Of a stretch of 43,240 nucleotides of DNA, positions 21,711 to 40,436 are shown one piece after another; positions within the stretch are counted from its first letter, which is position 1; the number at the start of each line of letters is the position of its first letter. This stretch comes from Candidatus Omnitrophota bacterium. GTDB taxonomy: Bacteria; Omnitrophota; Omnitrophia; Omnitrophales; Aquincolibacteriaceae. The notes under the pieces are model-generated. The model worked only from the letters and a program-made list of their open reading frames with translations. It was not told where the DNA came from and made no database searches. Position numbers and translations under genes: made by a program. Location of the stretch: assembly GCA_003140935.1 (NCBI GenBank), contig PLLJ01000053.1, positions 1 to 43,240 on the forward strand, given 5' to 3'.

Positions 21711-21716
21711 TATACT
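21711..21716 (+). promoter_or_regulatory. -10 element of the helicase promoter (leaderless)
   Basis: TATACT ends six bases before the duplicated ATG at 21723, with no Shine-Dalgarno sequence between. The surrounding GGCTATACTAC recurs in front of the PFK gene at 39099-39109. The -35 is weak (TTTCGC about 18 bp upstream). Confidence 0.65.
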
Positions 21717-21720
21717 ACGC

Positions 21721-21809
21721 GCATGTCCGATTCTTCGTCAGAAAATTCAAAGGTTAATGGGACTAGTCCTGGCAACCCTCTGTCAAAAGAAAATAGATAC
21801 CAGGGCATG
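21721..21809 (+). mobile_element. 84-bp in-frame mini-element, copy 1 (helicase N-terminus)
   Basis: A 79-bp core is flanked by GCATG at 21721-21725 and 21805-21809 (GCATGTC if extended). The flanks are exactly 84 bp apart. The flanking repeat contains the start codon, so the insertion duplicated the helicase ATG. Translation can start at the upstream copy and read the 28-codon insert in frame before reaching the original Met (residue 29). The core carries the CCTGG...CCAGG hairpin and the GGACTAGTCC palindrome. Confidence 0.88.
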
Positions 21810-23858
21810 TCATTTCAATTGGACCCGTTTCAACTGCAAGCCATCGAGTGGATCGAAAAGGAGCATTCTCTTCTCGTCTCTGCGCCCACGGGCTCCGGGA
21901 AGACGCTCATCGCCGAAAAGGCCGTCGAAAAAGCCCTTTCGCGCGGCGAACAGGTCATTTATACCGCCCCGATCAAGGCCCTGAGTAATCAGAAATTCCG
22001 GGATTTCCAGGAACATTTTGGCAAAGAAACGGTCGGGATCCTCACCGGAGACGTTTCCATCAACCGGGAAGCACCGCTTCTCATCATGACGACCGAGATC
22101 TACCGGAATTCCCTTTTTGAGGACTCGGAACGCATTCGAAAGATCGGCTGGGTCATTTTTGACGAAGTCCATTATCTGGACGACGCCCAGCGCGGTACGG
22201 TCTGGGAAGAAGCTCTCCTTTTCACGCCTCCGGAGATCCGCATCCTTGCTCTGAGCGCCACGATCCCGAACGTCCAGGAACTTGCGGACTGGATCCGTCA
22301 GATCCACCAGCGCCCCATCGCCGTGATCGAAGAGACGCATCGTCCTGTTCCGCTCCATTTCCTGTTCCAATGTCAGGGCAAGATCCTCACAAATACGAAA
22401 TCACTCCGGAAAGAAGGCTATCTTCAGCGCGATAATTGGCAGCTCTCTATGCGGGAAAGGCGCCGCGGGTTCCAACCGCCCCGCGCCCGGCCGAACCGCC
22501 TCTATGACATCCTGAAACATCTCATCAATGGGGACCAACTCCCTGCTATTTATTTTGCGTTTGGACGGAAACGTACGGCCATGCTTGCTTGGGAAGTCGC
22601 GCATTTCGACCTTTTGAGGGAAGCAGAGCGCCGCGAAGTCCGGACTCTTTACGACGAACTCCTGGCGCGTTACGATCTGGCGGGTGATAAGACCGCCGAA
22701 GAGATACGTCCGCTCGTCGAGCAAGGCATCGCCTACCATCACGCCGGCATGCTCCCGACGCTCAAAGAGGTCATCGAAAGACTTTTCACGAGCCGCCTGA
22801 TCAAGCTCATCTTCACTACCGAAACCTTCGCCTTGGGGATCAATATGCCGGCGCGCTCCGTGGTCTTTGACGAGCTTGAAAAATTCTACGGCACGGGGTT
22901 CAAACCGCTCACCACGCGCGATTTTTTTCAGATGGCCGGACGTGCGGGACGGCGCGGTATGGACCCGGAAGGTTTCGTTTACTGCCGTATCCATCCGAAT
23001 GACATCCCCTTCCCGGAAGTGGAACGCATTCTTTACGGGAAACCGGAGCCCGTGCGCAGTCAGCTGAACGCCACGTACGCGACGCTTCTGAATCTCTATA
23101 GGACACTCGGACACAGGCTCCTCGAGATCTATCCGCGTTCCTTCCATTTTTTCCAATCTTCCAAAAGGAAACGCGACGAAGGGCTCGAGCTTCTGAAGAA
23201 CAAGCTCGCGCTCCTGCAGGAAATGGGCTATATCACCGACCAGGGAACGACGGGGACTCAAGGCACGTCCAATTCTCCATCAAAAAATTCAACGGTTAAT
23301 TGGGCGAGTCCTGGCAACCCTTTATCAAAAGAAAATAACTGCCAGGGCACGCTCACGGTCAAAGGAGAATTCGCGGCCTCGATCTTCGGTTTTGAGCTGC
23401 TTCTTACGGAAATGTACACCGATGGCGCGCTGGAACAGCTGGATGAAGCGAAATTGAACGTCCTTTTGGCGGGATTGATCTTCGAACCGAGAAAGAACGA
23501 TGAGGCCCCGCGGCTCAGCAAGGACCACGGCGAGTTACTGAAAATGACCCAGCATTACCACCGGATGGTCTTCAAATGGGAATCCAATTTTCGCGTCACG
23601 CCCCACACCAAGCCCCCCTATTTCCATCTCGCCCGTCCGATCGAGGCGTGGACGCAGGGTAAGGACTTCGAGAAGATCTGTCAGCTGACCTCGGAAGACG
23701 AGGGAAGCCTGGTGCGTTACATCCGGATGGTGATCCAACTCTTGCGGGAGATCGCCAACGCACCGCACGCCTCCGAGGGCCTCAAGGCGAAGGCGAGACG
23801 CGCGAGAACCATGATCGACCGAGATGTGGTGGACGCGGAAAAACAACTGCGGATCTAA
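21723..23858 (+). CDS. DEAD/DEAH-box helicase, Ski2-like, with two inserted repeats
   Basis: This is a 711-residue superfamily 2 ATPase. Walker A is APTGSGKT (54-61), motif II is DEVH (147-150), motif III is LSATIPN (177-183), and motif VI is AGRAGRRGMDPEGF (about residue 410). This order and the RRGMD form fit the Ski2/Mtr4/HelY branch of 3'-5' RNA or DNA helicases. Residues 1-28 and about 514-541 are encoded by copies of the same 84-bp mini-element. The first adds a new N-terminus before the ancestral Met29; the second lies in a linker after the helicase core. The promoter -10 directly abuts the start codon. The gene converges on an AddB-like nuclease. Confidence 0.9.
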   Translation: MSDSSSENSKVNGTSPGNPLSKENRYQGMSFQLDPFQLQAIEWIEKEHSLLVSAPTGSGKTLIAEKAVEKALSRGEQVIYTAPIKALSNQKFRDFQEHFGKETVGILTGDVSINREAPLLIMTTEIYRNSLFEDSERIRKIGWVIFDEVHYLDDAQRGTVWEEALLFTPPEIRILALSATIPNVQELADWIRQIHQRPIAVIEETHRPVPLHFLFQCQGKILTNTKSLRKEGYLQRDNWQLSMRERRRGFQPPRARPNRLYDILKHLINGDQLPAIYFAFGRKRTAMLAWEVAHFDLLREAERREVRTLYDELLARYDLAGDKTAEEIRPLVEQGIAYHHAGMLPTLKEVIERLFTSRLIKLIFTTETFALGINMPARSVVFDELEKFYGTGFKPLTTRDFFQMAGRAGRRGMDPEGFVYCRIHPNDIPFPEVERILYGKPEPVRSQLNATYATLLNLYRTLGHRLLEIYPRSFHFFQSSKRKRDEGLELLKNKLALLQEMGYITDQGTTGTQGTSNSPSKNSTVNWASPGNPLSKENNCQGTLTVKGEFAASIFGFELLLTEMYTDGALEQLDEAKLNVLLAGLIFEPRKNDEAPRLSKDHGELLKMTQHYHRMVFKWESNFRVTPHTKPPYFHLARPIEAWTQGKDFEKICQLTSEDEGSLVRYIRMVIQLLREIANAPHASEGLKAKARRARTMIDRDVVDAEKQLRI
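23263..23351 (+). mobile_element. 84-bp in-frame mini-element, copy 2 (inside helicase gene)
   Basis: GCACG flanks both ends (23263-23267 and 23347-23351), 84 bp apart. The core begins TCCAATTCTCC and ends TGCCAGG. It adds 28 residues in the same frame as the other copies (NSPSK...NNCQG) without a stop. The 25 bases before it (GGGAACGACGGGGACTCAAG) resemble the GGGACTCG palindrome family, so this may be a composite site. Confidence 0.9.
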
Positions 23859-23895
23859 CGTTCTCTTTCTTCAAAAACCTCCGGAGGCATCGCGT

Positions 23896-26800
23896 CTATT
23901 CTTCTGACGCTTGCTTCTCTATCAGCCCTGCTTTTTCATCCTCTTGGCGGATCTTTTCAAGAATGATCGGCAGTTTCCATTTCTCGATGCGGCATACGGT
24001 GTCGTAAGGGCAGAAGCTTTCACACTCCCGGGGCCGCGCGGAGATCTCGGCGAGTTCGATCTCCTTCGTAAATTTGCGGACGAACGCCACCGCCCGGTCC
24101 AAAGTCCTTTGGAACACTTCGTCCGGAAGTTGCGACCTTGAGGAAAATTCCTTTTCAAATAGTTGGGCGTTCCCTTCGCTATAAAACCCGCTCCTCTTGT
24201 GATCACGGATGGAATAGATCTCGGCGCCGAGAGGCGTAAGTCCCAGGTGCTTTTGCGCGGCCAAAAGATAGAGCGGCAACTGGAGCGCAGTCCCGAGCTC
24301 GAGGTTCGCGGCCTTGAATCTCGCGGAGCGTTTGTAGTCGATCACGACCGCGAACTTCTTTTCTGCATCCGTATCGATCCGGTCCACCCGTCCCCGCAAT
24401 TTGATCTTCTTGCCCTGGCCTCTACTTTCTTCTGTCTGAAGGTTGCCAGGACAAGTCCCATTAACCTTCGAATTTTTTGATGGAGAATGGGGCTTGCCTT
24501 CGCCCTCGATCTCGAGAGCCGGATGATCATTCTCACCCAGAGTACCGAAAGAATATTCCACACGGTAGGGCTTGAAAGGCGCGTTTTTCAGACGCTCCGT
24601 TTCATAGCTTATAAAATCCATGAGCATCTCAAAGAGTTCACGGCGGTCGAGAGCTTCCTCGTAGGGTTCCGTCCACAGTATCGGATGCCGTTTAAAGCCT
24701 TCTTCCATCTCGCGCCGGACGAATCCTTCGAGCGTTTCTTTCGGATCTTTTTTCCTACGGTCCGCCACAAGGCTTTGGACGTTCGCCGAAGGACGAATCC
24801 GTCCGGAGATTTGTGGCGGAGATCCGTCCTCCGGCGGAGGATCAAAATACTGCTGGAGCACATGATGCAGGATACTTCCTTTTTGCATCGCGCGGATGTC
24901 CTCGCCCGTCTCTTTCAACTTGAGGATCTTGTCGGAAAAATAACGGAAAGGACACTTGGCATAAGTTTCAAGCCGCGTGGGGCTCGTTTCCGGGATCTCG
25001 AAATATCCCCCCTTCAAGATCTTCTCATCCAGGATCTTCGCCTCAACGGGTTTTACGGCAGAAAGAAGACGTTCACGGCTCCCAGGATCCCCGGAAAGTT
25101 GGGCCAGAGCCTCACGAAGGCCGGCCTCGTGTCCCTTTGCGTTACGAAGAGCGCCGGCCACCGAGGCTTCTAATTCACGACGTGTGATCGCCTCGCCGAC
25201 TGCGGGAAAAGGCCGCGAAAGGTCCTGACGTAGGATGGGCGCCCGGCCACAAAAAAGTTCTTTGACTTCTTCGAGATAGAAGGATGGCAGGGATTCTTTT
25301 CCCTCAAAATCAAGATGCGGGTAGCTTAAAAAAAGCTTTTCCTTCGCGCGCGTAACGGCGATGTAGAAAAAGAACCTCTCGATATTCTGCCGTGGCAGGC
25401 ACTCCGCGAGAGGATGTTCCATGCCGCCGTTCATCAATTTCCGTTCCCAATCCGAAAGCAACGGATCTTCCCGGACCTGCATGGGAAAAACTTTTTCCAG
25501 GAGGCCCGCCACGAACACGACCTTGTACTCTTTCTGCCGGGCGAGCGAGACGTCGTAGACTTGCACGCGGTTCTTGTCACGTTCGTGGAGCGAATAAACG
25601 TCCAATTCTACAAGGCCGAGAAAATGGTCGGCGAAATTTTCAAAAGAAATCTCCGAAGCCTTGATCTTCAGGAAATAGCCCCGGATCTCATCCAGAAGAG
25701 CCTCGAACCTCTTGGCGCAGGCCGCATCCCGGCGCGTGAACGGCGTGTAGCGATCGCTGATCTCCAGGATCCCGAAAGTATCATACACCGCCCGTTTAAA
25801 GATCCGGATATGATCTTCCGCAGTCTTCGCCGTACGGAACCGGTCCTCGAGTTCCGCGAGAGCCTTAAGTGTTTCCGTCTTTTTTCTATTAAACCCAGAC
25901 AGGCTTTCGGACTCCCCCTCTTTCCAGTCCCCAAGCCAGGCCTCACGCGTGAGTGCTATGCCTTCCCGGAACGACCGCTGCTCGAACTCCGCGAGCCATT
26001 CGTTGTTTTTTTCGATATCTTTTCCGAAGCGACGCGTGTAGCCGGATTTCAGGAAAGCGAAAAGGTCCTCTCTCTGCCAGGCATTACGGAAAATCGAAAG
26101 AAGTGATACGACTGCCGCAATCCAGGAGGAGAATTTCAAGCGGTCGCGTTCATGGATCTCAGCGGGGATCCCGTAATGTGAAAAGACCGAAGCAATGACA
26201 GGCGCGTAATGCCGGATCTGACGGAACAGGACCGCAAAATCGCTGTACCGATAATCCCCGGTCGCGTAGAGCTTATGGATCTGGCGTGCGATCAGCTCGA
26301 TCTCACCTTCGGTTCCGATAGCGTCAAGGATGACGATATCCTGTCCCGGTTCCGGCGCGGGTCTGGCAGATTTTTGAGAAAAAATATTTTTTTGAAGGAA
26401 AAGAAGCGAGGGCTTTTCGGTGCGCCGGGAGCGCGATTTTATCGTTTGCGTTTCGAATCCGAGCTTTTTGAGATCCTGCTCTGTCCGGTTCACGGCTTCA
26501 AACGCATCTTCGGACCCTTGGTCCCCTTCCTTGGTCAGCGCAATCGTAATGTTCTCGGTAATGGCAGAAAGCTCCCGGAGATATTCCAATTGTAAATTCG
26601 AAAAATCAAAAAAACCGTCGACCCAGATCCCCTTGAATCGCATGCCCGGAAGATCCGCCTTCTTTTTCCTTTCCCGGAAGATACGGAGAGCGTCCTGGCT
26701 GTCCCGGAGTCCCTGCTTTTCGAGACGCATCTCGTATTGCTCATAGAAATCGGCGAGCGCTTCGTACTTCGCGGTATAGGCCGGCTCAAAACCCTTGAGC

Positions 26801-27297
26801 GCGTTCATGCGTTCACGAAAAACTTCGGGAGGAACGCAGGACTCTTTGAGCTCGGTCATGAACTGTGCCATCAGGCCCAGGAACCCCGGCTGTTCACACA
26901 CTCCCTCGAAATAATCCCATGCATTCTCGCGGATAAGGTCGCGAACGATCAGCGCGCGCGTCAAGCTCGAAGCTACGGGAATATCGGCCACGCGAAAAAT
27001 ATCTCCCGCAAGCCGGGAGAGTGTGGTCACGCGCGGGTGAAAAAATCCCTTGAGCCCTCGCTGGATCAAAAGCGAGACCACGCGTTCGGTGTGTTCCGCA
27101 GAAGGAACGACGAAGAAAAGGTCGGCGGCAAGAGGATCGGCTGCGCTCGCAAGCGCCTCTCCGAAAGAATCCAGAAGTTGGTGCGTCTTCCCGCAACCGG
27201 CAGGACCGATCAGTAATGTCTTAGACATGCTTTTACCGGGAAGAAGAAAAGCAGAAGAGGGATGGCCCCTGTTGGAAAACGGAATGAAAAAGGCCAT
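23896..27297 (-). CDS. AddB-like helicase/PD-(D/E)XK nuclease subunit
   Basis: This 1133-residue protein has a Walker A (IGPAGCGKT, about residue 31), a UvrD-like C-terminal motif (AVTRAKEKLFLSYP) and a C-terminal nuclease with GRVDRID and the catalytic VVIDYKRS. Four Cys (AKCPFRYF and CESFCPYDTVC) fit the Fe-S cluster of AddB/RecB-type nucleases. It probably processes DNA ends for recombination, but no AddA gene is adjacent. Two repeat elements lie in frame: one just before the nuclease core (about 934-961), one in a linker (about 820-846). The ATG at 27297 has a good GGAGGA site; an alternative Met at 27228 starts nearer Walker A. Confidence 0.85.
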   Translation of the reverse strand: MAFFIPFSNRGHPSSAFLLPGKSMSKTLLIGPAGCGKTHQLLDSFGEALASAADPLAADLFFVVPSAEHTERVVSLLIQRGLKGFFHPRVTTLSRLAGDIFRVADIPVASSLTRALIVRDLIRENAWDYFEGVCEQPGFLGLMAQFMTELKESCVPPEVFRERMNALKGFEPAYTAKYEALADFYEQYEMRLEKQGLRDSQDALRIFRERKKKADLPGMRFKGIWVDGFFDFSNLQLEYLRELSAITENITIALTKEGDQGSEDAFEAVNRTEQDLKKLGFETQTIKSRSRRTEKPSLLFLQKNIFSQKSARPAPEPGQDIVILDAIGTEGEIELIARQIHKLYATGDYRYSDFAVLFRQIRHYAPVIASVFSHYGIPAEIHERDRLKFSSWIAAVVSLLSIFRNAWQREDLFAFLKSGYTRRFGKDIEKNNEWLAEFEQRSFREGIALTREAWLGDWKEGESESLSGFNRKKTETLKALAELEDRFRTAKTAEDHIRIFKRAVYDTFGILEISDRYTPFTRRDAACAKRFEALLDEIRGYFLKIKASEISFENFADHFLGLVELDVYSLHERDKNRVQVYDVSLARQKEYKVVFVAGLLEKVFPMQVREDPLLSDWERKLMNGGMEHPLAECLPRQNIERFFFYIAVTRAKEKLFLSYPHLDFEGKESLPSFYLEEVKELFCGRAPILRQDLSRPFPAVGEAITRRELEASVAGALRNAKGHEAGLREALAQLSGDPGSRERLLSAVKPVEAKILDEKILKGGYFEIPETSPTRLETYAKCPFRYFSDKILKLKETGEDIRAMQKGSILHHVLQQYFDPPPEDGSPPQISGRIRPSANVQSLVADRRKKDPKETLEGFVRREMEEGFKRHPILWTEPYEEALDRRELFEMLMDFISYETERLKNAPFKPYRVEYSFGTLGENDHPALEIEGEGKPHSPSKNSKVNGTCPGNLQTEESRGQGKKIKLRGRVDRIDTDAEKKFAVVIDYKRSARFKAANLELGTALQLPLYLLAAQKHLGLTPLGAEIYSIRDHKRSGFYSEGNAQLFEKEFSSRSQLPDEVFQRTLDRAVAFVRKFTKEIELAEISARPRECESFCPYDTVCRIEKWKLPIILEKIRQEDEKAGLIEKQASEE
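24409..24497 (-). mobile_element. 84-bp in-frame mini-element, copy 3 (inside AddB-like gene)
   Basis: On the gene strand, GCAAG flanks both ends (24493-24497 and 24409-24413), again 84 bp apart. The core encodes HSPSKNSKVNG... to ...RGQGK in the same frame as the other coding copies. It sits between two beta strands just ahead of the GRVDRID nuclease motif, in a probable surface loop. Confidence 0.9.
24761..24838. repeat. Palindromic repeat, TCCGCC...GGCGGA family, inside AddB-like gene
   Basis: TCCGCCACAA (24761-24770) is the inverted complement of TTGTGGCGGA (24811-24820). It is followed by GATCCGTCCTCCGGCGGA, which matches the repeat at 39020 in reverse. It encodes a Pro/Ser/Arg-rich linker (PPPEDGSPPQISGRIRPSAN) in frame. 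Confidence 0.78.
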
Positions 27298-27326
27298 ATC
27301 CGTCCTCCGCCCTCCGCCATCCTTTT

Positions 27327-27728
27327 TTATTCATGGTAGATGGCACAACTATCCTGATTCTCCCAAAGCGTGACCTTGGAAACCGGGAGTTTCAGACGGC
27401 GGGCTGCTTGAAAGATCTTCCGGGCGAGCATTTCCGCCGTCGGGTTTTCGTCCACGAGAACTATAGGCTCGCCGGCTTTTTTGAGAAGCTTCGCGAGAGG
27501 ATCTTTGTGCCAAAGGATCATTTTGTGATCGAGATGCCGGTCGATCCACTTTCCAATCGTCCGCTTGATATCGAAAAAATCTACGACCATCCCCTTGGGG
27601 TTGAGTTCCGGAGTCGTCATTTCGATCTCCACGTGTGCGCTGTGGCCGTGAAGATGAGAGCATTTGTCGTGTCCACCCAAAAGCCGGTGCCCATAATTGA
27701 AATAGATCATCTTTGAAACTTTATACAT
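27327..27728 (-). CDS. queD: QueD-like 6-carboxytetrahydropterin synthase
   Basis: This protein of about 133 residues belongs to the PTPS/QueD fold. Zinc ligands are His14 (NYGHRL) and His27/His29 in the C23-x3-HGH motif that marks QueD. MVVDFFDIK and PTAEMLARKIF are conserved. QueD turns dihydroneopterin triphosphate into carboxytetrahydropterin for queuosine synthesis. Other que genes are not in the window. I chose the Met at 27728 because longer versions run into intergenic sequence next to a mini-element; the Shine-Dalgarno is weak. It is followed by the AddB-like gene on the same strand after 29 bp. Confidence 0.88.
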   Translation of the reverse strand: MYKVSKMIYFNYGHRLLGGHDKCSHLHGHSAHVEIEMTTPELNPKGMVVDFFDIKRTIGKWIDRHLDHKMILWHKDPLAKLLKKAGEPIVLVDENPTAEMLARKIFQAARRLKLPVSKVTLWENQDSCAIYHE

Positions 27729-27793
27729 TGCCTGGATCCCTCGAGAACAGTTGCGGAGTAACTGAGTAGGGTCATTATGGCCGATTTCCTGGA

Positions 27794-27882
27794 ACAAGTC
27801 CAATTCTCCATCAGAAGATCAAAAGGTTAATTGGGCTAGTCCTGGTAACCATCTGTCAGAAGAAAATAGATGCCAGGACAAG
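27794..27882 (+). mobile_element. 84-bp mini-element, copy 4 (intergenic)
   Basis: ACAAG (ACAAGT if extended) flanks both ends at 27794 and 27878, 84 bp apart. This copy lies between queD and efpL, which are divergent. Its peptide frame is still open (NSPSEDQKVNW...CQDK, then stop) although no start codon precedes it in that frame. That suggests a recent insertion or purely structural constraint. Confidence 0.88.
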
Positions 27883-27946
27883 TAAACACGGTCCCGGCAT
27901 TTCCGAGAGGTGGAAGTTGGGGTCGGCCCTGATCCCACGGAAGAAC

Positions 27947-27975
27947 TTTCCCATTACCGGGGTATCGTATAGAAT
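27947..27975 (+). promoter_or_regulatory. Possible promoter of efpL
   Basis: TTTCCC (27947-27952) and TAGAAT (27970-27975) are 17 bp apart, 48 bp before the efpL start. The -35 is poor. Between here and the mini-element (27883-27946) I see nothing. Confidence 0.4.
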
Positions 27976-28022
27976 GCTGCCTCATTTATAGGAAACGCTC
28001 TTATCTCCTGAAAGGAGCCTTT

Positions 28023-28595
28023 ATGTCCGAGATCTCGGCCAGTGAACTTGAGAAAAAACTTTATATCGAAGTGGACGGCCAGCCGTATTTCGTGCTCGAT
28101 GTCAAATTTGCATCGCCTACCGCGCGGGGAGCTTCGACCATGGTCAAGGCCAAGGTGCGCAATCTCCTGAACGGCGCGGTGCTGGACAAGACCTTCAAAA
28201 CAAGTGAAAAATTCGAGGTCCCCGACGTGGAAAAAGTCCCGGCGGTCTTTCAGTACATCACCGGTTCCGAATATCATTTTATGGATAACGTCGCTTATGA
28301 GGAATTCGCGCTCACCGCGGAAAAACTCGGCGAACAAAAATTTTATCTCAAGGAGAACCAGGAAGTGCTGGCTTTGAAGTTAAGAGGCACGGTGGTTTCG
28401 CTGGAGCTTCCGGTCTATGTCGAGCTCGCCATCACGGAAACCGACCCCGTCGTCAAGGGGATCTCCGCCTCCGGGCGTTCGCTGAAAAAAGCAAAGCTCG
28501 AAACGGGGCTTGAAGTCCAAGCGCCCCTTTACGCGGAAGCAGGCACTATCCTGCGCGTGAACACCGAGACCGGAGAAGTATCCGGTCGCGCTTAA
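28023..28595 (+). CDS. efpL: Elongation factor P-like protein, EfpL/YeiP type
   Basis: This protein has 190 residues with the three beta-barrel layout of EF-P. The tip loop is SPTARGAST with Arg35. This matches the PTARGA loop of YeiP (EfpL) rather than the Lys or Arg loops of classical EF-P. ELAITETDPVVKG and the C-terminal ETGLEVQAPLY are conserved. EF-P proteins relieve ribosome stalling at proline runs; the YeiP/EfpL branch acts with its unmodified Arg loop. AAAGGAG precedes the ATG. No EpmA, EpmB or EarP gene is nearby. Whether a classical EF-P exists elsewhere cannot be seen. Confidence 0.88.
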   Translation: MSEISASELEKKLYIEVDGQPYFVLDVKFASPTARGASTMVKAKVRNLLNGAVLDKTFKTSEKFEVPDVEKVPAVFQYITGSEYHFMDNVAYEEFALTAEKLGEQKFYLKENQEVLALKLRGTVVSLELPVYVELAITETDPVVKGISASGRSLKKAKLETGLEVQAPLYAEAGTILRVNTETGEVSGRA

Positions 28596-28606
28596 GAGTT
28601 TCTTTT

Positions 28607-28954
28607 CTAATGGATGCTCATTCCGGCATCGACCGGCGCATCATTCATCGGCAAATTCTCAGGAGCTTTTTCACCAGCCTTGGAATCCGAATCACCTTCA
28701 AAGGCCGACGGGTCTGATCCCCCGACATCATCTTGGCTCATGACCTCTTTAACATGCGGCATACGGGAACCGGAATTTTGTCCTGCGTCTTCATTAAGGG
28801 TAGCGCCCTCCCCTCCGTCAAAAGTGGAAGGGACCGAGGCGACCTCCTGAGCCTGGCCAGAAGCCCCTGAACTGTCCTCCTCGGCATACAATACCGGTGC
28901 TCCTATCATCGCGACGAGAAAAAGAGCCAAAAACACATAAGCGGTTTTCTTCAC
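28607..28954 (-). CDS. Small exported acidic protein of unknown function
   Basis: This 115-residue protein starts at a GTG with a strong AAGGAGG six bases upstream. The signal peptide (KKTAYVFLALFLVAMIGAPVLYA) is cut before EEDSSG. The mature part is acidic, rich in Asp, Ser, Gly and Glu, without Cys and probably disordered. No family is recognised. It converges with efpL with only 11 bp between stops. Confidence 0.65.
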   Translation of the reverse strand: MKKTAYVFLALFLVAMIGAPVLYAEEDSSGASGQAQEVASVPSTFDGGEGATLNEDAGQNSGSRMPHVKEVMSQDDVGGSDPSAFEGDSDSKAGEKAPENLPMNDAPVDAGMSIH

Positions 28955-28975
28955 TCGGTCCTCCTTTTCGTTTCA

Positions 28976-29533
28976 TTAACTCTTGTTGGGGATGTATGAA
29001 TTGAACGAACTGATCTCCTCCAGGGACTTCCTTGTTTTTGGAAGTATTTTATCTTCCGCAGAAAACCCAAGAGCGAGCACGATATCGATCTTTTTATCCT
29101 TGGGGATCCGAAGCTCTTCTTTCAAGGCTTTTTCATCGAACCAGCCGATCCAGCAACTTCCGATCCCGAGTTCCTGCGCCTGCAGGATCAAATGTTCGCA
29201 AGCGATCCCGATATCCACAAGGCAATAACTTGTATCCCGGATCTGACCTCCGAATGACGTCAGGAACTTTTCCTTTTCCGAAACGACGGCGACAAGCACC
29301 GGCGCTTCCACGGCGAACTTGTTCATGGAATAGATCCCGGAAAAGATCCGAGCCGCCACACGTTTCCGGAGCTCCGGTTCGTTGATCACGATAAAATGCC
29401 ATGGTTGAGAATTGCATCCCGAGGGCGCAAGGCGCGCTGCCTCAAGACATTTGAGGAGGTCCTCTTTTGCGACCGGATGGTCCGAATACTTCCTGACACT
29501 TCTCCGCTTGTGAACGAGCTCTTCGAACGTCAT
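28976..29533 (-). CDS. Nitroreductase-family flavoprotein
   Basis: This protein of about 185 residues has the FMN-binding signature KRRSVRKYSD at the N-terminus, AARLAPSGCNSQPWHF, and GIGSCWIGWFDE near the C-terminus. Such enzymes use FMN and NAD(P)H to reduce nitro groups, quinones or other acceptors; the natural substrate is unknown. The ATG at 29533 overlaps the ispH stop (ATGA), so it is translationally coupled to ispH. A longer in-frame version reaching into ispH is rejected. About 20 bp separate its stop from the start of the acidic exported protein gene. Confidence 0.87.
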   Translation of the reverse strand: MTFEELVHKRRSVRKYSDHPVAKEDLLKCLEAARLAPSGCNSQPWHFIVINEPELRKRVAARIFSGIYSMNKFAVEAPVLVAVVSEKEKFLTSFGGQIRDTSYCLVDIGIACEHLILQAQELGIGSCWIGWFDEKALKEELRIPKDKKIDIVLALGFSAEDKILPKTRKSLEEISSFNSYIPNKS

Positions 29534-30732
29534 GTGCCCCCCGAAATGTCGATAAGACGTTGGATCACTTCTTCGACCACGCGATTCGGCGTAGACGCCC
29601 CGGCCGTAATGCCGACCTTGATCTTTCCCGGAGGGAGCCAACCCGAAGTCTCAAGGATGTCCCGGGCTCCGGTCTTCTTGTGCCGGATCTTCTCCTGCGA
29701 GATGAGTGAGGTCGCGTCCTCGACATGGAACGCGGGACAGAATTCGGAGGCGATCTCCACCAGGTGACCGGTATTGCTTGACCGGTAACCGCCGATCACG
29801 AGAATCACATCCATTTTTTTCTCGCCCAGTTCGCGGATCGCGTCCTGCCGGTCCTGGGTCGCGGAACAGATCGTGTCAAAATGACGGAACCGGTCCGGGA
29901 GCTCCCCCTCGCCATAACGGACCCGGAGGGCATCGCGCAACATATCCGAGATCTCGATCGATTCGCGCGACAGCATGGTCGTCTGGTTCGCGAACCCTAT
30001 TTTTCCGAGGTCCTTGTCCGGGTTAAAACCCTCCGAACAGGCATCTTTAAAACTTGCGAGGAACGAGTCCCGGGTTCCGCCGGAGGACGGACCCGTCCGA
30101 CGTATTGTGGCGGGCCCGAGTCCCGCGATGTATTGACAAACCTGCTCCGCCTGCCGCCTGTCCTTCACCACCAGATATTTTGCGGCCCGCGAACAAGTCG
30201 CGCGCGTTTCTTCGTGGTCGTATTTACCGTGGATCACGGAAGTGAAACCATCCCGGCTGTAGGATTCCACGCGGCGCCACACGCTCATCACGGACCCGCA
30301 GGTCGTGTCCACGATGACACAGCGTTTCTTTTGAAATTCTCTCAGTGCCTCGACCGGCACCCCGAAGGCCGGCATGATCACCACGTCCTTTTCGGTGATC
30401 TCGGAACGCGAGGCCTGATCGGTGAGGATCTTGACGCCCATGCCCTGGAGTTCCGCGTTCACGCGCGGATTATGGATGATCTCATTGGTCAGAAAAATGC
30501 GCCGGTCCGGAAAACGCGCGCGGGTCTCATAGGCATATTCCACGGCACGTTCCACCCCGTAACAAAAACCGAATTCCTCCGCGAGATGGATCTCAAGGCA
30601 TCCTGCCTTCAGAGAAAATCCGGAAGCGCGGACCTTATCGATGAGCGGGCTGTGATAACTTCGGTCGAGTTGGCGTTGGACGATCCCTTTGAGTTCGGGA
30701 CTTTTATGGAAGGTCTTACCTTCTGCGGTCAT
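29530..30732 (-). CDS. ispH: 4-hydroxy-3-methylbut-2-enyl diphosphate reductase, long cyanobacterial/plant type
   Basis: This 400-residue enzyme catalyses the last step of the MEP isoprenoid pathway, making IPP and DMAPP with a 4Fe-4S cluster. The cluster Cys are 57 (EFGFCYGVERA), 145 (VDTTCGSV) and 289 (DTICSATQDRQDA). Substrate His87 is in NEIIHNPRVN and His168 in IHGK, followed by YDHEETRATC with the proton-donor Glu. The length and DLGKIGFANQTTML block mark the cyanobacterial/plant branch, about 80 residues longer than E. coli IspH. Residues about 205-221 (GPATIRRTGPSSGGTR) come from palindromic repeat sequence and look like an inserted loop. It starts 11 bp after the deaminase gene. Confidence 0.93.
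   Translation of the reverse strand: MTAEGKTFHKSPELKGIVQRQLDRSYHSPLIDKVRASGFSLKAGCLEIHLAEEFGFCYGVERAVEYAYETRARFPDRRIFLTNEIIHNPRVNAELQGMGVKILTDQASRSEITEKDVVIMPAFGVPVEALREFQKKRCVIVDTTCGSVMSVWRRVESYSRDGFTSVIHGKYDHEETRATCSRAAKYLVVKDRRQAEQVCQYIAGLGPATIRRTGPSSGGTRDSFLASFKDACSEGFNPDKDLGKIGFANQTTMLSRESIEISDMLRDALRVRYGEGELPDRFRHFDTICSATQDRQDAIRELGEKKMDVILVIGGYRSSNTGHLVEIASEFCPAFHVEDATSLISQEKIRHKKTGARDILETSGWLPPGKIKVGITAGASTPNRVVEEVIQRLIDISGGT
30058..30125. repeat. Composite palindromic repeat inside ispH
   Basis: TCCGCCGGAGGACGGACC (30076 on) and ATTGTGGCGGG (to 30114) form a copy of the TCCGCC...GGCGGA family. It is flanked by GAGTCCCG at 30065 and 30118, and the left flank is identical to the end of the repeat at 21623-21686. 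It encodes a Gly/Arg/Ser-rich insert in IspH. Confidence 0.75.
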
Positions 30733-30743
30733 GAAGACCCCGA

Positions 30744-31745
30744 TCAGGAAAAAACGATCTTGCGGACCGTGACACCGGCCTGCTCGAGCAGCTTAAGAGA
30801 GGTTTCCAGGAACGAATAATTCCCCTGGTAGACGACTTCGCTGATCCCGGAATTGATGATCATCTTGGTGCACATCAGACAGGGAGAAAAAGTCGTGTAA
30901 AGCGTGGCGCCCTTGAGGCTCACGCCATGATAGGCCGCCTGCACGATCGCGTTCTCTTCGCCATGCGAGCAGAGACATTCTCCCAGGTCTTTTCCGGAAG
31001 CATCGATCGCATTGCAACGGGGGCAACCGCCGTCGCTGCAATTCTTGATCCCCCGGGGCGTTCCGTTGTAACCAGTCGAAATAATGCGCTTGTCCTTTAC
31101 GATCACGGCGGCGATCTTCCGTTTCATGCAGTTGGCACGCATGGCCACGACCTTGGCGATATTCATGAAATACTCGTCCCAGCCCGGTCTGGAGGCCTTC
31201 TGAGCAAGATCGAGAAAAATCAACTTCACCTTCTCATGCAACTCCTTGAGCGGTCCGTTGTTATCGACCTGAAGGTCCGCCAAAGCGATCGTCTGATCAA
31301 GCTGCTGGTCAGTCTTGCTCGGACTTTTTGCTTCCTTGGCCTCAAGCGCCTGAAAATCCTCCCACACCCGGGGATCATTCTCCCTGCCGCGCTGCTTGAG
31401 ACGTTCGAAACGAAGCTTTTCCGGGGCATGGACCCGGACAAGGGTGAAATCACCGCGCCGGCGGAAGACTTGGACTTCCGAGGGATGGCGGATAGAATCG
31501 ATCACATAATTTTTTTCGGGATCCAGCTTCGCAAAGATCCGTTCGGCGAGACAACCCGGCCCTTCTTTTTCGCGCAATTCATTGCCGAGTGAGACGAGCA
31601 CATCCCGCGCGATCTCCAAGCCGCGTTTCTTGGCCTCCTCCCGGAGCGCGTCAGAAAGCGAATAATAATGAAAGCCCCGGTCTTTGAGAAAATCCGCCGC
31701 TTCCCCCTTCCCTGAACCGTTCTTTCCCGTGAGTCCGATGATCAT
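30744..31745 (-). CDS. P-loop kinase-like domain fused to dCMP deaminase
   Basis: This is a 333-residue fusion. The N-terminal 165 residues form a P-loop nucleotide-kinase-like domain (Walker A GKNGSGKG, 7-14; VIDSIRHPSEV; RGRENDPR). The C-terminal half is a cytidine/dCMP deaminase: zinc ligands His261 and Cys289/Cys292 (SPCLMCTKM), proton shuttle Glu263 (HGEENA), plus an extra Cys/His set (CSDGGCPRC, CLC) as in dCMP deaminases. It should deaminate dCMP to dUMP for thymidylate synthesis, with the kinase-like part perhaps regulating. The same two-domain order is known in AvcD antiphage deaminases, but this protein is shorter. It is in a minus-strand run with ispH. Confidence 0.85.
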   Translation of the reverse strand: MIIGLTGKNGSGKGEAADFLKDRGFHYYSLSDALREEAKKRGLEIARDVLVSLGNELREKEGPGCLAERIFAKLDPEKNYVIDSIRHPSEVQVFRRRGDFTLVRVHAPEKLRFERLKQRGRENDPRVWEDFQALEAKEAKSPSKTDQQLDQTIALADLQVDNNGPLKELHEKVKLIFLDLAQKASRPGWDEYFMNIAKVVAMRANCMKRKIAAVIVKDKRIISTGYNGTPRGIKNCSDGGCPRCNAIDASGKDLGECLCSHGEENAIVQAAYHGVSLKGATLYTTFSPCLMCTKMIINSGISEVVYQGNYSFLETSLKLLEQAGVTVRKIVFS

Positions 31746-31757
31746 AAGATTCCTTTA

Positions 31758-32345
31758 TTAGGGATGGATCCAAAAATCAGGCGCATAGAAACGCTGATCG
31801 CCCGTGTGCCGTTCCACCAGAATAAGGTGGTGGGCGTTCTTACCGTCTTTAATTTCAGGCAACGCGGCGATCTCGCGAAGGGTTTCCCCGCGTTTCCCCG
31901 CGGGAGGCCTTATAAAACCCACGGACTGTTTTTCCAGATGGAAAGCCGCCTCTTCAATGTCATCCACGCGAAGCGCCATGGCATAAGGCTTCTTATCTCC
32001 GAAATGCGTGACCCATTCCAGCCCCATTTTTTCATGGGGGTGTTCGACCAGGATCGCCGGGGCGCATCCTTTTCGAAAAACCTCAACGTTGTGGCCTTTG
32101 TGTTCAAGAACTTTGGCGGCGGGATCTCTTTCATATCCCATTTCGAGGAATTCGCCCACTCTGTCTTTGAGATGAACGGTCCGGAAAATGAAATGGTCCA
32201 GAATCGAAAGGAGGCCGACCCCGACAAGCGACAAACCACGCGTCACGACCTGGGCCGCGGTATTCTCCATGGCAAGCCCTACGGCATATTGCTTCAGGAT
32301 CTTTTCAAAAAGGGCGGGGTCCTTGCAGCCGGCAGTAAATGGCAT
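31758..32345 (-). CDS. VOC/glyoxalase-fold protein
   Basis: This 195-residue protein has a VOC metalloenzyme-like pattern: LDHFIFRTVHLKDRVGEFLEMGY (50-75), EVFRKG..AILVEHP, and a second half with AMALRVDDIEEAAFHLEK. It resembles half of a 4-hydroxyphenylpyruvate-dioxygenase-type or glyoxalase-type fold. Potential metal ligands are His and Glu residues, but I cannot assign the full set. The first 40 residues are outside the fold. AAGGGAG precedes the ATG. It is next to the deaminase gene (12 bp), so probably in the same transcript. The reaction is unknown. Confidence 0.6.
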   Translation of the reverse strand: MPFTAGCKDPALFEKILKQYAVGLAMENTAAQVVTRGLSLVGVGLLSILDHFIFRTVHLKDRVGEFLEMGYERDPAAKVLEHKGHNVEVFRKGCAPAILVEHPHEKMGLEWVTHFGDKKPYAMALRVDDIEEAAFHLEKQSVGFIRPPAGKRGETLREIAALPEIKDGKNAHHLILVERHTGDQRFYAPDFWIHP

Positions 32346-32385
32346 CTTGACTCCCTTATGGATGTGCTACCTACAAAGACAAAGC

Positions 32386-32414
32386 TTGCCTACCCTGGGA
32401 TCCAGGGTAGGCAA
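32386..32414. terminator. Perfect hairpin, possible terminator after ferredoxin
   Basis: TTGCCTACCCTGG and CCAGGGTAGGCAA form a 13-bp perfect stem with a three-base loop. There is no clear T run on either strand, so it may be a processing or stability hairpin rather than a classical terminator. Confidence 0.5.
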
Positions 32415-32451
32415 ACCGGGGAAAACTCAAATGAACTTTGAATGGCTCTTT

Positions 32452-32763
32452 TTATTTCAGCTTGTTCCCCGGTTTTTTCGGGGCTTCATCCCTTGAGCGA
32501 GGTGCCGCTTTGGGGTTCGACTTGAACTGGACCGAAAGGTCCGCATTGATCTTGGCATAGGTCGGGTCCATATCCTCGGACTCGACGATCGAACCCACCG
32601 GGCATTCCGCCGCGCAAGCGCCGCATGAAATGCAGACCAACGGATCGATCACCATGAAATCTTTGCCCTGATAGGTCCCCGGATAGATCGCTTCGACGGG
32701 GCAAATGGCAGCGCAAAGACCGTAGCGCTCGCCGTGACATTTCTCTGTAATAACATAAGCCAT
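32452..32763 (-). CDS. Two-cluster ferredoxin with charged C-terminal tail
   Basis: This 103-residue cytoplasmic electron carrier holds two cluster sites. The first is C9-x7-C17-x3-C21-P (EKCHGERYGLCAAICP). The second is the classical CISCGACAAECP. The spacing fits the 7Fe/8Fe ferredoxin branch. After residue 75 the protein has a lysine/proline-rich tail (KSNPKAAPRSRDEAPKKPGN) not found in minimal ferredoxins. AAGGAG lies nine bases before the ATG. It is separated from htpX by 76 bp on the same strand. The partner enzyme is unknown; radical SAM enzymes and IspH in the window need such donors. Confidence 0.9.
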   Translation of the reverse strand: MAYVITEKCHGERYGLCAAICPVEAIYPGTYQGKDFMVIDPLVCISCGACAAECPVGSIVESEDMDPTYAKINADLSVQFKSNPKAAPRSRDEAPKKPGNKLK

Positions 32764-32839
32764 TCTGTGATTCTCCTTATGGGTGTTGGTTTTGAAAGAG
32801 GCCGTATTTTAACCGCTGCTTCCCCCATCGTCAATGCTT

Positions 32840-33712
32840 TCAAAGCTGGGGCTCAGACCTCTTGGGAGTCAGGCTCATGGCCTCAAGACGGGCCATACGG
32901 TCTTCTAGGGGAGGATGCGTGCTGAAAAGAGCGGACCACCCTTTGCCCGAAAGCGGATTCGTGATGAAAAGATGGGCGGTCGCGGGCTGGGCTTCGCGAA
33001 GTGGAAGCCGTTTGGAAGCGGCATCGATCTTTCGAAGCGCACTCGAGAGATAAAGAGGTTCTTCACAGAGTTTGGCTCCGCCGAGATCCGCTCCGTATTC
33101 CCTGGAGCGTGAGATCGCAAGCTGGATGAGCATCGCGACAAAGGGCATCACGACCGATATCAAAATCAGCGCCAGCGGATGGCCGTTGTCCCGTTCATCA
33201 CGCTCCCCGCCCCAGAAAAATGACCAGCGGAACATGGAAGCGATCATGCTGAGCGCACCGGCCAATGTCGCCACGATCGAGGATAATAAGATATCGTAAT
33301 TCAGGATATGCGACAGCTCGTGCCCCAACACACCGGAAAGCTCCTCCTTATTAAGAAGCCCGACGATCCCGTGTGTGACCGCGATCGCCGCATGCTTGGG
33401 ATCGCGGCCCGTGGCGAAGGCGTTCGCCGAAGCCGAAGGAAGCATGTAAAGCCGCGGCATGGGAACGCCGGCTTTTGACGAAAGCTTCCTCAGGATCTCA
33501 AAAACCTCAGGGGCTTCATCCTCGGTCAGGAGTTGTGCCCGATGCATCGCAAGCACGATCTTGTCGCTAAACCAGTAAGCGCCAAAATTCATCACGCAGG
33601 CAAAACAGAACGCAATCGACATGCCGCGCCCTCCGCCCAGGGCAAACCCAAAAAAAACCACCAAAAGCGTCAGGAGCGTCAGAAGAAATGTTGTTTTAAA
33701 AAAGTTGGCCAT
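32840..33712 (-). CDS. htpX: M48 family membrane metalloprotease HtpX
   Basis: This 290-residue protein has two N-terminal membrane helices (7-27, 30-48), then the zinc motif HELSH (131-135) and two more helices (about 145-165, 180-200). SREYGADLGGAKL supplies the third zinc ligand Glu. ATGRDPKHAAIAVTHGI is the HtpX signature. It degrades damaged inner-membrane proteins from the cytosolic side together with FtsH. AAGGGA precedes the ATG. It starts 11 bp after the HAD gene, so probably one operon. Confidence 0.93.
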   Translation of the reverse strand: MANFFKTTFLLTLLTLLVVFFGFALGGGRGMSIAFCFACVMNFGAYWFSDKIVLAMHRAQLLTEDEAPEVFEILRKLSSKAGVPMPRLYMLPSASANAFATGRDPKHAAIAVTHGIVGLLNKEELSGVLGHELSHILNYDILLSSIVATLAGALSMIASMFRWSFFWGGERDERDNGHPLALILISVVMPFVAMLIQLAISRSREYGADLGGAKLCEEPLYLSSALRKIDAASKRLPLREAQPATAHLFITNPLSGKGWSALFSTHPPLEDRMARLEAMSLTPKRSEPQL

Positions 33713-33723
33713 TCTTTGTTCCC

Positions 33724-34347
33724 TTAGAACTTGATATCGAGTTTCCGAAGGGTCTTAAGGAGGGCGGGACGGCCCTTGAAATGGATGGCATGCATGCCAG
33801 CTTTTCGGGCGCCTTCGGTAAAACTTTTCATGTCGTCGATGAAGACGGTCTCCTGGGGTTTCAACTTGATCTTTTTAAGAACACGCCGGTAGATGTTGAG
33901 GTAGGGTTTGCGCGCGCCCACCTCATGCGACGGGAATTTCCGGTTGAAATGTCGGAGGAGTTTGAAATGCTTCTTAAGATGGGTGAAATGAAGGGCGTTG
34001 GTGTTTGAGATCAGATAAAGTGGGTAATGCCTTTTGATCCGCTTAAGGAGCTTGTCCATCCCCGGATTCTCCCAGAAGATGTCGTTCCAATAATGGCGGA
34101 AGGTCGCCAGAGGCATGGAAACGCCGAGGGTTTTGCAAGCGATCCGGTGGAACTCGCGGGTCGAGAGTTCGCCGCGCGTATAGGCCTGCTCGAACCGGGA
34201 AAGAAAAAAACGCTTCCAGATCTCCCGGGTGGAAAGACCCGATGCGGCCGAAAAACGCTTCGCGGCTTTTTCGACATCGTAATTCACAAGCACGTTGCCG
34301 AGATCGAAGATAACGGCCTTGATGTCCGGCTTGGCTGTTTTTTTCAT
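33724..34347 (-). CDS. HAD-superfamily phosphatase, YihX-like
   Basis: This protein of about 207 residues has the HAD motif I VIFDLGNVLVNYD (nucleophile Asp), motif II in YLISNTN, the conserved Lys in VGARKPYLNIYRRVLKK, and motif IV VFIDDMK. The helical cap near residues 20-80 is of the C1 type. YihX-type enzymes dephosphorylate sugar phosphates or FMN-like substrates; the natural substrate is unknown. The ATG at 34347 is preferred to an upstream in-frame TTG. It is first of a minus-strand run with htpX. No good Shine-Dalgarno precedes the start. Confidence 0.88.
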   Translation of the reverse strand: MKKTAKPDIKAVIFDLGNVLVNYDVEKAAKRFSAASGLSTREIWKRFFLSRFEQAYTRGELSTREFHRIACKTLGVSMPLATFRHYWNDIFWENPGMDKLLKRIKRHYPLYLISNTNALHFTHLKKHFKLLRHFNRKFPSHEVGARKPYLNIYRRVLKKIKLKPQETVFIDDMKSFTEGARKAGMHAIHFKGRPALLKTLRKLDIKF

Positions 34348-34398
34348 AGAAAGATATTTTAACAAAGAAAAAAAGTAACGCTACTCCTTTAACAAACG

Positions 34399-34445
34399 GG
34401 GAATGGGTCATGCGAGCCGGATTTCGTGACCTATTCCCTTTTTTT
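34399..34445 (+). terminator. Orphan intrinsic terminator on + strand
   Basis: GGGAATGGGTCA (34399-34410) pairs with TGACCTATTCCC (34427-34438), 12 bp with one G-T pair, followed by seven T. No + strand gene ends here; the neighbours to the left are all on the minus strand. It may end a small RNA or insulate the following promoter. Confidence 0.75.
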
Positions 34446-34530
34446 GTACCTTACAAAAAAATTACAAAGCATCACACAAAAAAGGCCGCAATACGTGCCG
34501 CTCCCGGACGGGATTGTGCAAAAACGTCTA

Positions 34531-34559
34531 TTGCTTCACTCTGGGCGGAGGAGTAGAAT
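34531..34559 (+). promoter_or_regulatory. Promoter of the SbtA-like peptide gene
   Basis: TTGCTT (34531-34536) and TAGAAT (34554-34559) are 17 bp apart. They end 37 bp before the start codon, which has a strong AAGGAGG. Confidence 0.72.
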
Positions 34560-34595
34560 TTTTCGCACTTTAACACCAGGTAAGAAGGAGGGTTT

Positions 34596-34844
34596 ATGAG
34601 CAAAGGGAAGATCAAGAAGGTTCTTGCGGGGCTTAGCATGGTAGGCCTGATCGCAGGAATGGCGGGAACCGTCCATGCCGAGGGCACGGGCTGCGGGAAA
34701 GGTTCCTGCGGTTCAGGGGCCAGTAAAGAAATGACGGAAGAGACATCGACCCCCAATCCCGATATGAAGACCGGAGAGTCCGCTGACATGCCGACAACGA
34801 TGGATGCGAAAGCGCCGGACGATAGCAGCAAAAAACAGATGTAA
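34596..34844 (+). CDS. Putative SbtA-like RiPP precursor peptide
   Basis: This is an 82-residue peptide. The N-terminus MSKGKIKKVLAGLSMVGLIA looks like a leader with the LAGLS and GLIAG words I associate with SbtA-type thio(seleno)oxazole precursors. It is followed by a Cys/Gly core (TGCGKGSCGSG, residues 31-41) with just two Cys. No in-frame TGA occurs, so Sec is not used. The remaining 40 residues are acidic and low-complexity (EETSTPNPDMKTGESADM), an odd extension for a core peptide. AAGGAGG precedes the ATG. A radical SAM/SPASM gene follows 112 bp downstream, past a partial terminator. Alternatively it is a small exported protein, because the leader could act as a signal peptide (cut after VHA). 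Confidence 0.7.
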   Translation: MSKGKIKKVLAGLSMVGLIAGMAGTVHAEGTGCGKGSCGSGASKEMTEETSTPNPDMKTGESADMPTTMDAKAPDDSSKKQM

Positions 34845-34873
34845 GCAGGATCATTTCAAAAAGAATTTTCGCA

Positions 34874-34903
34874 CGGCCCGCGCTTGATCACGCGGGCCGT
34901 TTT
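34874..34903 (+). terminator. Attenuating terminator between precursor and maturase
   Basis: CGGCCCGCG (34874-34882) pairs with CGCGGGCCG (34891-34899), followed by only four T. A strong stem with a weak T run should allow partial read-through, giving more precursor than maturase mRNA. Confidence 0.7.
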
Positions 34904-34956
34904 GCTTTTGGGCGCACGGGGGCGCTGCCCGAGATCACCCCCGGGAATGGAAAATA

Positions 34957-36567: not shown

Positions 36568-36609
36568 AACCAGCTTGCGGGTCATGGATAAAATCTTCGT
36601 CCTAGAATT

Positions 36610-38855: not shown

Positions 38856-38957
38856 AGTTTCTCTTTCAGGGGGTTTTGCTGGCACTGCGTTACTATTGAT
38901 TTTAAGAATTCGTAGTGCCGTATCGCCCAAACTTTATATTTCTTTTCCGAAATGGTC

Positions 38958-39008: not shown

Positions 39009-39019
39009 GTTAACCCTTA

Positions 39020-39057: not shown

Positions 39058-39078
39058 AAATTAAATAAAGAACGGTAC

Positions 39079-39107: not shown

Positions 39108-39158
39108 ACCTCAAATTCGGAAAAGGGGATAGTTCCCTCAACAAATCGGATTCGTCCT

Positions 39159-40436
39159 ATGAAGAAAATGATACTAAAAGGCAAGCCCAATTCTCCATCA
39201 AAAGATTTAAATGTTAATTGGACTAGTCCTGGCAACCTTCTATTTAAAAATAATAGATGCCAGGGCAAGGCTGTCGTCGGCCAGTCCGGCGGGTGCACGG
39301 CGGTCATCAATCAAAGTCTCGCGGGCGTCGTGGAAGAGGCACGGACTTGCCGCGCGATCACGGGGATCCTCGGATCGCGGAATGGCATCGAAGGCATCCT
39401 GAACGGTTCTTTCGTCAACCTCAAGGCAAAACCGTCGAAATCGATCCTCCGGATCGCCCAATCCCCCTCTGCCGCCCTCGGTTCTTCCCGCTACAAACTC
39501 AAACTCGGAGACGACAGGAAGATCATTGCAAGCCTCCGGAAACATAACATCCGCTACGTGTTCCTGATCGGAGGGAATGATACGGCAAACACCAGCCTCC
39601 AGATCGCAAAAGCCGCGGAAAAAGATCATTACGAGATCCGGGTCATCCATATCCCGAAGACCATCGATAACGACCTGATAGAAACCGACCATTCTCCCGG
39701 ATATGGCTCCGTCGCGCGCTTTGCGGCCGTTACCACGCAGGAGGCGGCGCTGGACACCAAAGCCATGAAAAATGTCGATCCTGTGAAGATCATCGAGCTT
39801 ATGGGAAGAAATTCCGGCTGGATCGTCGCGGCCTCGGCTCTTTTGAAGAAAGCGCCGGAGGATGCTCCCCATCTCTTGCTCATCCCCGAAGTCCCGTTCG
39901 ACGAAACGGCTTTTATTAAAAGAACTGAGGCCATTCTTCAATCCGTGGGCTATTGCGTTATTGTGATCTCGGAGACGATCCGCGACTATCAGGGAAACCG
40001 CATCGGCTGTAAAACCGAGGGAGTGACGGCCGATCCTTTCGGCCACCAATATGTCGAAGGCACGGCGGCACGGCTTGCCGCGATCCTTGAAAAAAACCTG
40101 GGGGTCCGTGCCCGTTTCGACAAGCCAGGAACGATCCAGCGCATGTCGATGGCTTATATCTCAGAGACCGATCAAAAAGAAGCTTATCAGGCGGGTGTTC
40201 ACGCGGTCCAGTGGGCTCTCCGGGGACTGACCCGGGTGATGGTGGGATTTGAAAGAAAACCGGGAAAGAAATACCTTATCACTTACAAGTCGGTACCGCT
40301 CGAAAAGATCCCGAACTGTGAGCGAGATCTCCCCTTAGGATTTTTTGACAAGAAAAAAGGGATGGTCACACCGGCCTTCATAGAATACGCTTTACCGCTT
40401 CTCGGCAAAAACCTCCCTCGTTTTGCTTCGCTTTAA
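39159..40436 (+). CDS. 6-phosphofructokinase, PPi-dependent type, with inserted repeat
   Basis: This 425-residue protein converts fructose 6-phosphate to the 1,6-bisphosphate. The phosphate-donor loop GQSGGCTAVINQS and the GGNDTANT and PKTIDND blocks place it in the group A PFK family. The Lys in PKTIDND (Gly in ATP enzymes) and the Asp in GGND favour pyrophosphate as donor. MGRNSGW and the SETIRD region are conserved. Residues 8-35 (NSPSKDLNVNW... to ...RCQGK) come from the 84-bp mini-element. Without them the protein would start MKKMILKGKAVVGQSGG, a normal N-terminus for the family. The insert therefore sits right before the first beta strand. Confidence 0.92.
   Translation: MKKMILKGKPNSPSKDLNVNWTSPGNLLFKNNRCQGKAVVGQSGGCTAVINQSLAGVVEEARTCRAITGILGSRNGIEGILNGSFVNLKAKPSKSILRIAQSPSAALGSSRYKLKLGDDRKIIASLRKHNIRYVFLIGGNDTANTSLQIAKAAEKDHYEIRVIHIPKTIDNDLIETDHSPGYGSVARFAAVTTQEAALDTKAMKNVDPVKIIELMGRNSGWIVAASALLKKAPEDAPHLLLIPEVPFDETAFIKRTEAILQSVGYCVIVISETIRDYQGNRIGCKTEGVTADPFGHQYVEGTAARLAAILEKNLGVRARFDKPGTIQRMSMAYISETDQKEAYQAGVHAVQWALRGLTRVMVGFERKPGKKYLITYKSVPLEKIPNCERDLPLGFFDKKKGMVTPAFIEYALPLLGKNLPRFASL
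39181..39269 (+). mobile_element. 84-bp in-frame mini-element, copy 5 (PFK N-terminus)
   Basis: GCAAG flanks both ends (39181-39185 and 39265-39269), 84 bp apart. Two stems are visible: CCAATT (39187) with AATTGG (39216), and CCTGGCA (39228) with TGCCAGG (39258). The second is extended by TCTATT/AATAGA. The frame and orientation are the same as in the other coding copies. Confidence 0.9.

Follow-up and report, generated by a model that had tools for sequence, protein, structure and literature searches.

A probable mobile mini-element at the predicted leaderless start codon of a helicase gene in Candidatus Omnitrophota

Small peptide-coding repeats found both between genes and, in frame, within unrelated housekeeping genes that are conserved are known as Rickettsia palindromic elements (RPEs), and have a counterpart in Wolbachia (PMC10969869, PMC2229807). 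RPEs are long stem-loops of 105-146 bp with 12-bp terminal inverted repeats, and their target duplication is listed as unknown (PMC2229807). The GTAG REPs and REPtrons (RAYT, Y1) are short hairpins beside a tetranucleotide, and form direct arrays and composite units (PMC3733652). Among the bacterial MITEs (ERIC, Correia/NEMIS, YPAL), some families are able to make in-frame fusions (PMC2229807).

The repeat described here was met at the start of a helicase gene in a 43,240-nt stretch of DNA from Candidatus Omnitrophota, the whole of which is called the window below (Table 1). An initial annotation had proposed a mini-element insertion at this point, and this was borne out both by the repeat family, of which the insert is a copy, and by element-free orthologs which show the insert-less state. 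Like RPEs, the Omnitrophota repeat lies in frame in unrelated protein genes. In contrast to RPEs, it consists of two separate hairpins whose ends pair only within each hairpin, with no long palindrome; its length of about 80 nt plus the target repeat falls outside 105-146 bp; it carries a tetranucleotide duplication; and its exact pattern, scanned against 84,980 species genomes, matched only MAGs of Candidatus Omnitrophota, a different phylum, with 0 matches in viral contigs. The elements thus act like RPEs but are not RPEs, being set apart by architecture and host. As in GTAG REPs and REPtrons, hairpins are found at a tetranucleotide, in arrays and in composites, but the foot of the hairpins carries neither GTAG nor CGTC (the tags are CAAG, CTAG, CAGT, TAG and others), copies lie in genes and in frame, and none of 18 Y1 loci had an F1 end. 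The elements share with MITEs that they are non-autonomous, short and multicopy and have a target-site duplication, but they differ from ERIC, Correia/NEMIS and YPAL in having neither a terminal inverted repeat beyond YCC...GGR nor 5'-TA termini. Very probably, the insert is a copy of a non-autonomous mobile mini-element, confined to related Omnitrophota and inserting at a tetranucleotide, which has given a putatively leaderless gene a 28-residue N-terminal fusion.

Table 1. Features of the helicase locus and other F1 copies in the window
Feature	Position	Strand	Evidence
Ski2/Mtr4-like DEAD-box helicase with DSHCT domain, host gene of two in-frame elements	21723..23858	+	Pfam PF00270, PF08148; PDB match SKI2W
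-10 box TATACT, putative helicase promoter	21711..21716	+	TATACT/TATAAT exactly 6 nt before start ATG in G000-G005, G021, G016
Left target repeat GCATG, holding the presumed present start ATG (21723-21725)	21721..21725	+	Sequence; left/right repeat statistics, 41 copies
F1 element body, 80 nt; CTAG joins its two hairpins	21726..21805	+	Repeat family; covariance model match 93.1 bits; alignment
Hairpin 1, arm TCCGATT pairing with AATGGGA; one decayed pair	21726..21762	+	Alignment, pair counts across copies
Hairpin 2, arm TCCTGGCA pairing with TACCAGGG	21767..21805	+	Alignment, pair counts
Right target repeat GCATG; ATG 21807-21809 is Met29, predicted ancestral start, as in element-free orthologs	21805..21809	+	Ortholog N-termini; PDB homology from residue 29
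Second F1 copy in helicase gene, in frame, GCACG repeats both sides	23262..23351	+	Absent from 8/8 orthologs compared, protein contiguous
F1 copy, in frame in AddB-like nuclease/helicase gene (23896-27297, minus), GCAAG repeats	24409..24498	-	Pfam; site empty in G001, G002, G003, G004, G005, G021
F1 copy outside coding frame, upstream of QueD/PTPS-like gene, ACAAG repeats	27793..27882	+	Site empty in the G005 ortholog: CTCTGACAAGTAAAC
F1 copy, in frame near N-terminus of phosphofructokinase gene, GCAAG repeats	39180..39269	+	Pfam PF00365; absent from G001, G021

The helicase frame contains the Pfam domains DEAD, Helicase_C and DSHCT, and its best solved relatives in the PDB are human SKI2W and MTR4, the homology to human Ski2W starting exactly at residue 29. 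It reads MSDSSSENSKVNGTSPGNPLSKENRYQG followed by MSFQLDPF... without a stop, and the sequence GCATGTC is present at 21721-21727 and again at 21805-21811, with a spacing of exactly 84 nt. Of 58 related genomes, 46 yielded a helicase ortholog, and the upstream DNA was read for 29 of these. G000 denotes the genome of the window, where the site is filled, G001-G005 the rest of the six genomes of genus g1, and G021 and G016 sister genera. The element-free orthologs in G001, G002, G003, G004, G021 and G016 begin MSFQLDPF (or MAFQ/MSFE), the G004 helicase being 96% identical and without the insert, and in all six (genus g1 and the two sister genera) TATACT or TATAAT is located exactly 6 nt before that ATG. 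None of the element-free orthologs started well upstream of Met29: no ATG was found upstream of its equivalent in G002-G004, G016 and G025, and the in-frame stretch upstream in G001, LSSYTTS, is without a start codon. A pre-insertion start at MSFQLDPF directly behind a -10 TATACT had been claimed before these orthologs were consulted, and they agree with it. In the filled genes of G000 and G005, the 6-nt spacer between the -10 box and the ATG is retained at the promoter-proximal ATG, again as claimed, and the 28 new codons (84 nt) are fused in frame and stop-free through the ORF.

No ribosome-binding site is evident in the sequence before ATG 21723. A -10 box 5-8 nt before the start, the lack of a ribosome-binding site and conservation among orthologs were taken as the marks of a leaderless gene, and all three are seen here (6 nt in 8 genomes). 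In 360 kb of the G000 genome surveyed, only 3 of 367 candidate ATGs were preceded, at a distance of 5-7 nt, by a strict TATA[AC]T; leaderless starts would appear to exist in this genome, although these counts do not imply that they are common. Because of the ortholog starts, the 6-nt spacing and the PDB homology, Met29 is read as the ancestral start, the gene as leaderless-looking and the 28 codons as an N-terminal fusion, and a leaderless start of the helicase is well supported by these comparisons. It could be argued that translation continues to begin mainly at Met29 and leaves the upstream ATG unused, since ATG 21807 is the ancestral start. However, the -10 box ends 90 nt upstream of Met29 as against 6 nt before ATG 21723, and no ribosome-binding site is evident in the sequence before Met29 either, and we consider this quite unlikely.

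Two claims of the initial annotation stood only in part. The GCATG(TC) repeat on both sides is a host duplication of GCATG or CATG, about 4-5 bp, but TC is not duplicated; it matches on both sides because the element begins TCC and the gene continues TCA. The statement that the duplication preserved both the transcription and the translation start is geometrically true, but any insertion immediately 3' of the ATG does the same. A leaderless start-codon insertion is predicted to keep the promoter and start geometry, and what the element itself adds at the start codon is 84 nt, free of stops and correctly phased. The helicase start is one instance of a genus-wide system and not a singular accident.

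Five copies of the 80-84 nt repeat, about 80-83% identical, are present in the window, the helicase insert among them. The other four were matched with E values of 5.9e-21 to 7.4e-17, far beyond chance, and more copies are found elsewhere in the genome. Five of the highest-scoring F1 copies of G000 are located within 17.5 kb (window 21720-39269), while the window makes up 1.8% of the assembly, and this clustering suggests local spreading. When 35 copies, taken from the genus and a single sister genus, were aligned (92 columns), they had a shared architecture, [CAAG]-hairpin 1-CTAG-hairpin 2-[CAAG], with the stems CCAATT..AATTGG and CCTGGCA..TGCCAGG; the flanking tetranucleotide is mostly CAAG, and CATG at the helicase start. 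The stem pairs covary. At the one pair of hairpin 1 which is decayed to G.G in the helicase-start copy, and is A-T or C-G elsewhere, C-G was counted 16 times and A-U 13 times. The observed covariation score was reached by 0 of 500 shuffles, and sliding the partners abolished the signal. The helicase-start copy itself folds no better than shuffles (DNA fold z +0.65); it is probably decayed and, because its hairpins are weak, probably inactive.

Some F1 copies are composite. In these, an F3 double hairpin has entered the CTAG that separates the two F1 hairpins, and the array as a whole is still in frame in genes (L069:3848-4021, L089:989-1162, L077:2148-2424); F3 sits at CTAGT with TAG on either side, a nested insertion into known sequence. 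Several copies of G004 and G001 (L092:960-1071, L102:1004-1112, L214:1001-1114, L077, L083) have a perfect hairpin of 23-25 nt, GCCTGCCTGCCGGACAGGCAGG(C), at the same position of hairpin 1.

Among 25 coding copies, the stems were the least variable parts (low entropy), third codon positions were no freer than the others, and dN/dS was about 1.2. Given this ratio we take the peptide to be incidental, with selection acting on the nucleic-acid structure and the open frame rather than on the peptide. The alternative is a beneficial N-terminal extension, the 28 residues being kept for localisation or regulation of the helicase, and the presence of the element at the helicase start in a second species, G005, could be cited for it. 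Besides the dN/dS ratio and the third codon positions, which are the least variable, the occurrence of the same peptide in the unrelated UvrA, GltX, AddB, PFK and LeuS and the lack of the element in most helicase orthologs argue against such a function, and we regard it as very unlikely.

Clean empty and filled ortholog pairs demonstrate insertion with a duplication of about 4-5 bp. The GltX site is empty in G000 (TGGAAAGGCAAGATC) and filled in G001 and G004, and a Nuo-like site is empty in G000 (CAAGGGAAAAAA) and filled in G004 and G021; none of the orthologs compared has an element at the AddB, helicase-internal or PFK site. Over 41 elements or arrays, left and right flanks agreed more often than in shuffles at the final two positions of the tetranucleotide (p<0.0002 and 0.0004), and also at the base preceding it (p 0.015). 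Variant targets are matched on both flanks, as CATG/CATG, CACG/CACG, CAAA/CAAA and CAGG/CAGG. This last observation bears on the most serious alternative, in which there is no true duplication, and an IS200/IS605- or REP-like element (HUH/Y1, single-stranded) with family-specific ends goes in on the 3' side of CAAG and has a CAAG of its own at its end. Each family does keep its own tetranucleotide (CAAG in F1, TAG in F3, also CAGT and CCTG), the paired hairpins look like a left and a right end, each junction in a tandem array has a single, shared tetranucleotide, and Y1 genes are present in several genomes. The matched variant targets CATG, CACG, CAAA and CAGG speak against it, however, as do the failure to detect Y1 genes in G005 and G003 and the lack of F1 ends at Y1 loci, of which the only one close to an element-like array is bounded by terminal repeats of its own. 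Family-specific ends are therefore possible, but we hold them to be doubtful.

Of 41 copies compared for their frames, 31 are open in one and the same frame, running into host ORFs, nearly all of them long, and always on the strand of the gene; of the other 10, 9 have stops in that frame, several of them with lengths not divisible by three. This contrast is partly circular, coding status having been read from open frames, and the ortholog comparisons are its independent support. The hosts, named by eye or by Pfam, include UvrA, GltX, AroE, LeuS, TatD, XerD-like, AddB and PFK, and the net lengths of in-gene copies are 81, 84 or 168 nt. The insert contains hairpins and is bordered by identical codons, which recalls T4 gene 60, where take-off and landing codons match (PMC5009743), and it might be absent from the protein through removal from the RNA or ribosome bypass by way of these codons. 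Skipping would require neither an open frame nor a length divisible by three, yet in-gene copies have both and copies outside genes have stops or odd lengths; bypassing or splicing was rejected as extremely improbable.

Further copies were noted at other positions in and near genes. The internal helicase insertion is placed between the helicase core and the DSHCT domain; in this stretch the alignment shows a long additional region in human SKI2W, the arch domain. The single UvrA-like ORF of G004 (L077:762-3065) appears to hold three elements or arrays. Elements within a few codons of gene ends (L069:3848-4021, L087:959-1048) give altered C-termini, in genes that are LspA-like and glycosyltransferase-like by eye. 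In G001, locus L128 upstream of the QueD/PTPS gene has a truncated element remnant, GCATGTCCAATCCTCCATC, roughly where the window has its 27793 copy.

By DNA query, each of the six g1 genomes has copies, as does G021, with weak partial matches elsewhere. By the covariance model, each g1 genome has at least 15-61 double-hairpin relatives, G021 has 25, two g12 genomes have about 10, and most other family members have none. An Rfam scan of the window gave nothing at a family's gathering score, with weak matches elsewhere in the window, and a tRNA search found none. As it is not in Rfam, the repeat superfamily is apparently undescribed, and it is apparently lineage-restricted. Several sites are occupied in two genomes: the helicase start in G000 and G005, GltX in G001 and G004, AroE in G000 and G005, Nuo in G004 and G021, and QueD in G004 and G026. 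A tree of the element copies was undecided between shared and independent insertion at the helicase start (p-AU 0.315), and G000 groups with G004 in the helicase DNA tree (86/92) but with G005 in the concatenated-protein tree (71/93); the helicase-start copies of G000 and G005 may stem from shared descent or from recurrent insertion.

The search for an autonomous partner covered Y1 genes and gave no transposase with matching ends; the element ends share only YCC...GGR as an inverted repeat. A Y1/RAYT transposase was rejected as the mobiliser, because such genes, though present in some other genomes, were not detected in G005 (95% complete) or G003 (82%), both of which have many copies, and no F1 end was found at 18 Y1 loci. 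The Y1 gene of G002 (L115:1180-1960) is flanked by its own ACACACCGGGTGTGT-type repeats and adjoins a divergent hairpin array with CCGG spacers. Pairing of the middle tetranucleotide with the target as a guide was also rejected, as it would account for some copies (CTTG with CAAG), while those at CATG or CACG do not conform to it.

Most likely, a non-autonomous, hairpin-recognised element is moved in trans, leaves a 4-5 bp target repeat and survives in genes only in phase. The insertion, the duplicated target, the conserved hairpins, the in-frame fusion of 28 codons and the unchanged 6-nt spacing can all be read directly from the DNA. In the proposed sequence of events, an element of about 80 nt with two hairpins would insert at a tetranucleotide, with CAAG preferred and CATG used at the helicase, and leave the target on both sides. 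If the helicase is transcribed leaderlessly from the ATG, the first ATG would be used and a 28-residue N-terminal tail produced. In-gene copies would persist only where the open frame is in phase, selection removing the rest, and a recombinase recognising the paired hairpins might, tentatively, mobilise the element in trans. A bolder idea, which we judge unlikely, is a dedicated DNA-hairpin mobility system with chosen tetranucleotides, perhaps precise excision, and a fixed, stop-free cargo of 28 codons. If true, such a system could live inside essential genes, even on start codons, and the patchy occupation of the same sites (helicase start, GltX, Nuo, QueD) would reflect repeated targeting or precise excision.

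In-frame selfish DNA in conserved genes is known mainly from Rickettsiales and a few MITE families. The Omnitrophota case is abundant, apparently independent and from a distant phylum, offers multiple empty and filled ortholog pairs, and has a visible target duplication, a point given as unknown for RPEs. With it, the ways in which mobile DNA can add peptide segments to housekeeping proteins become open to test, and the helicase suggests that a leaderless gene can accept an insertion on its initiation site with promoter and start geometry retained.
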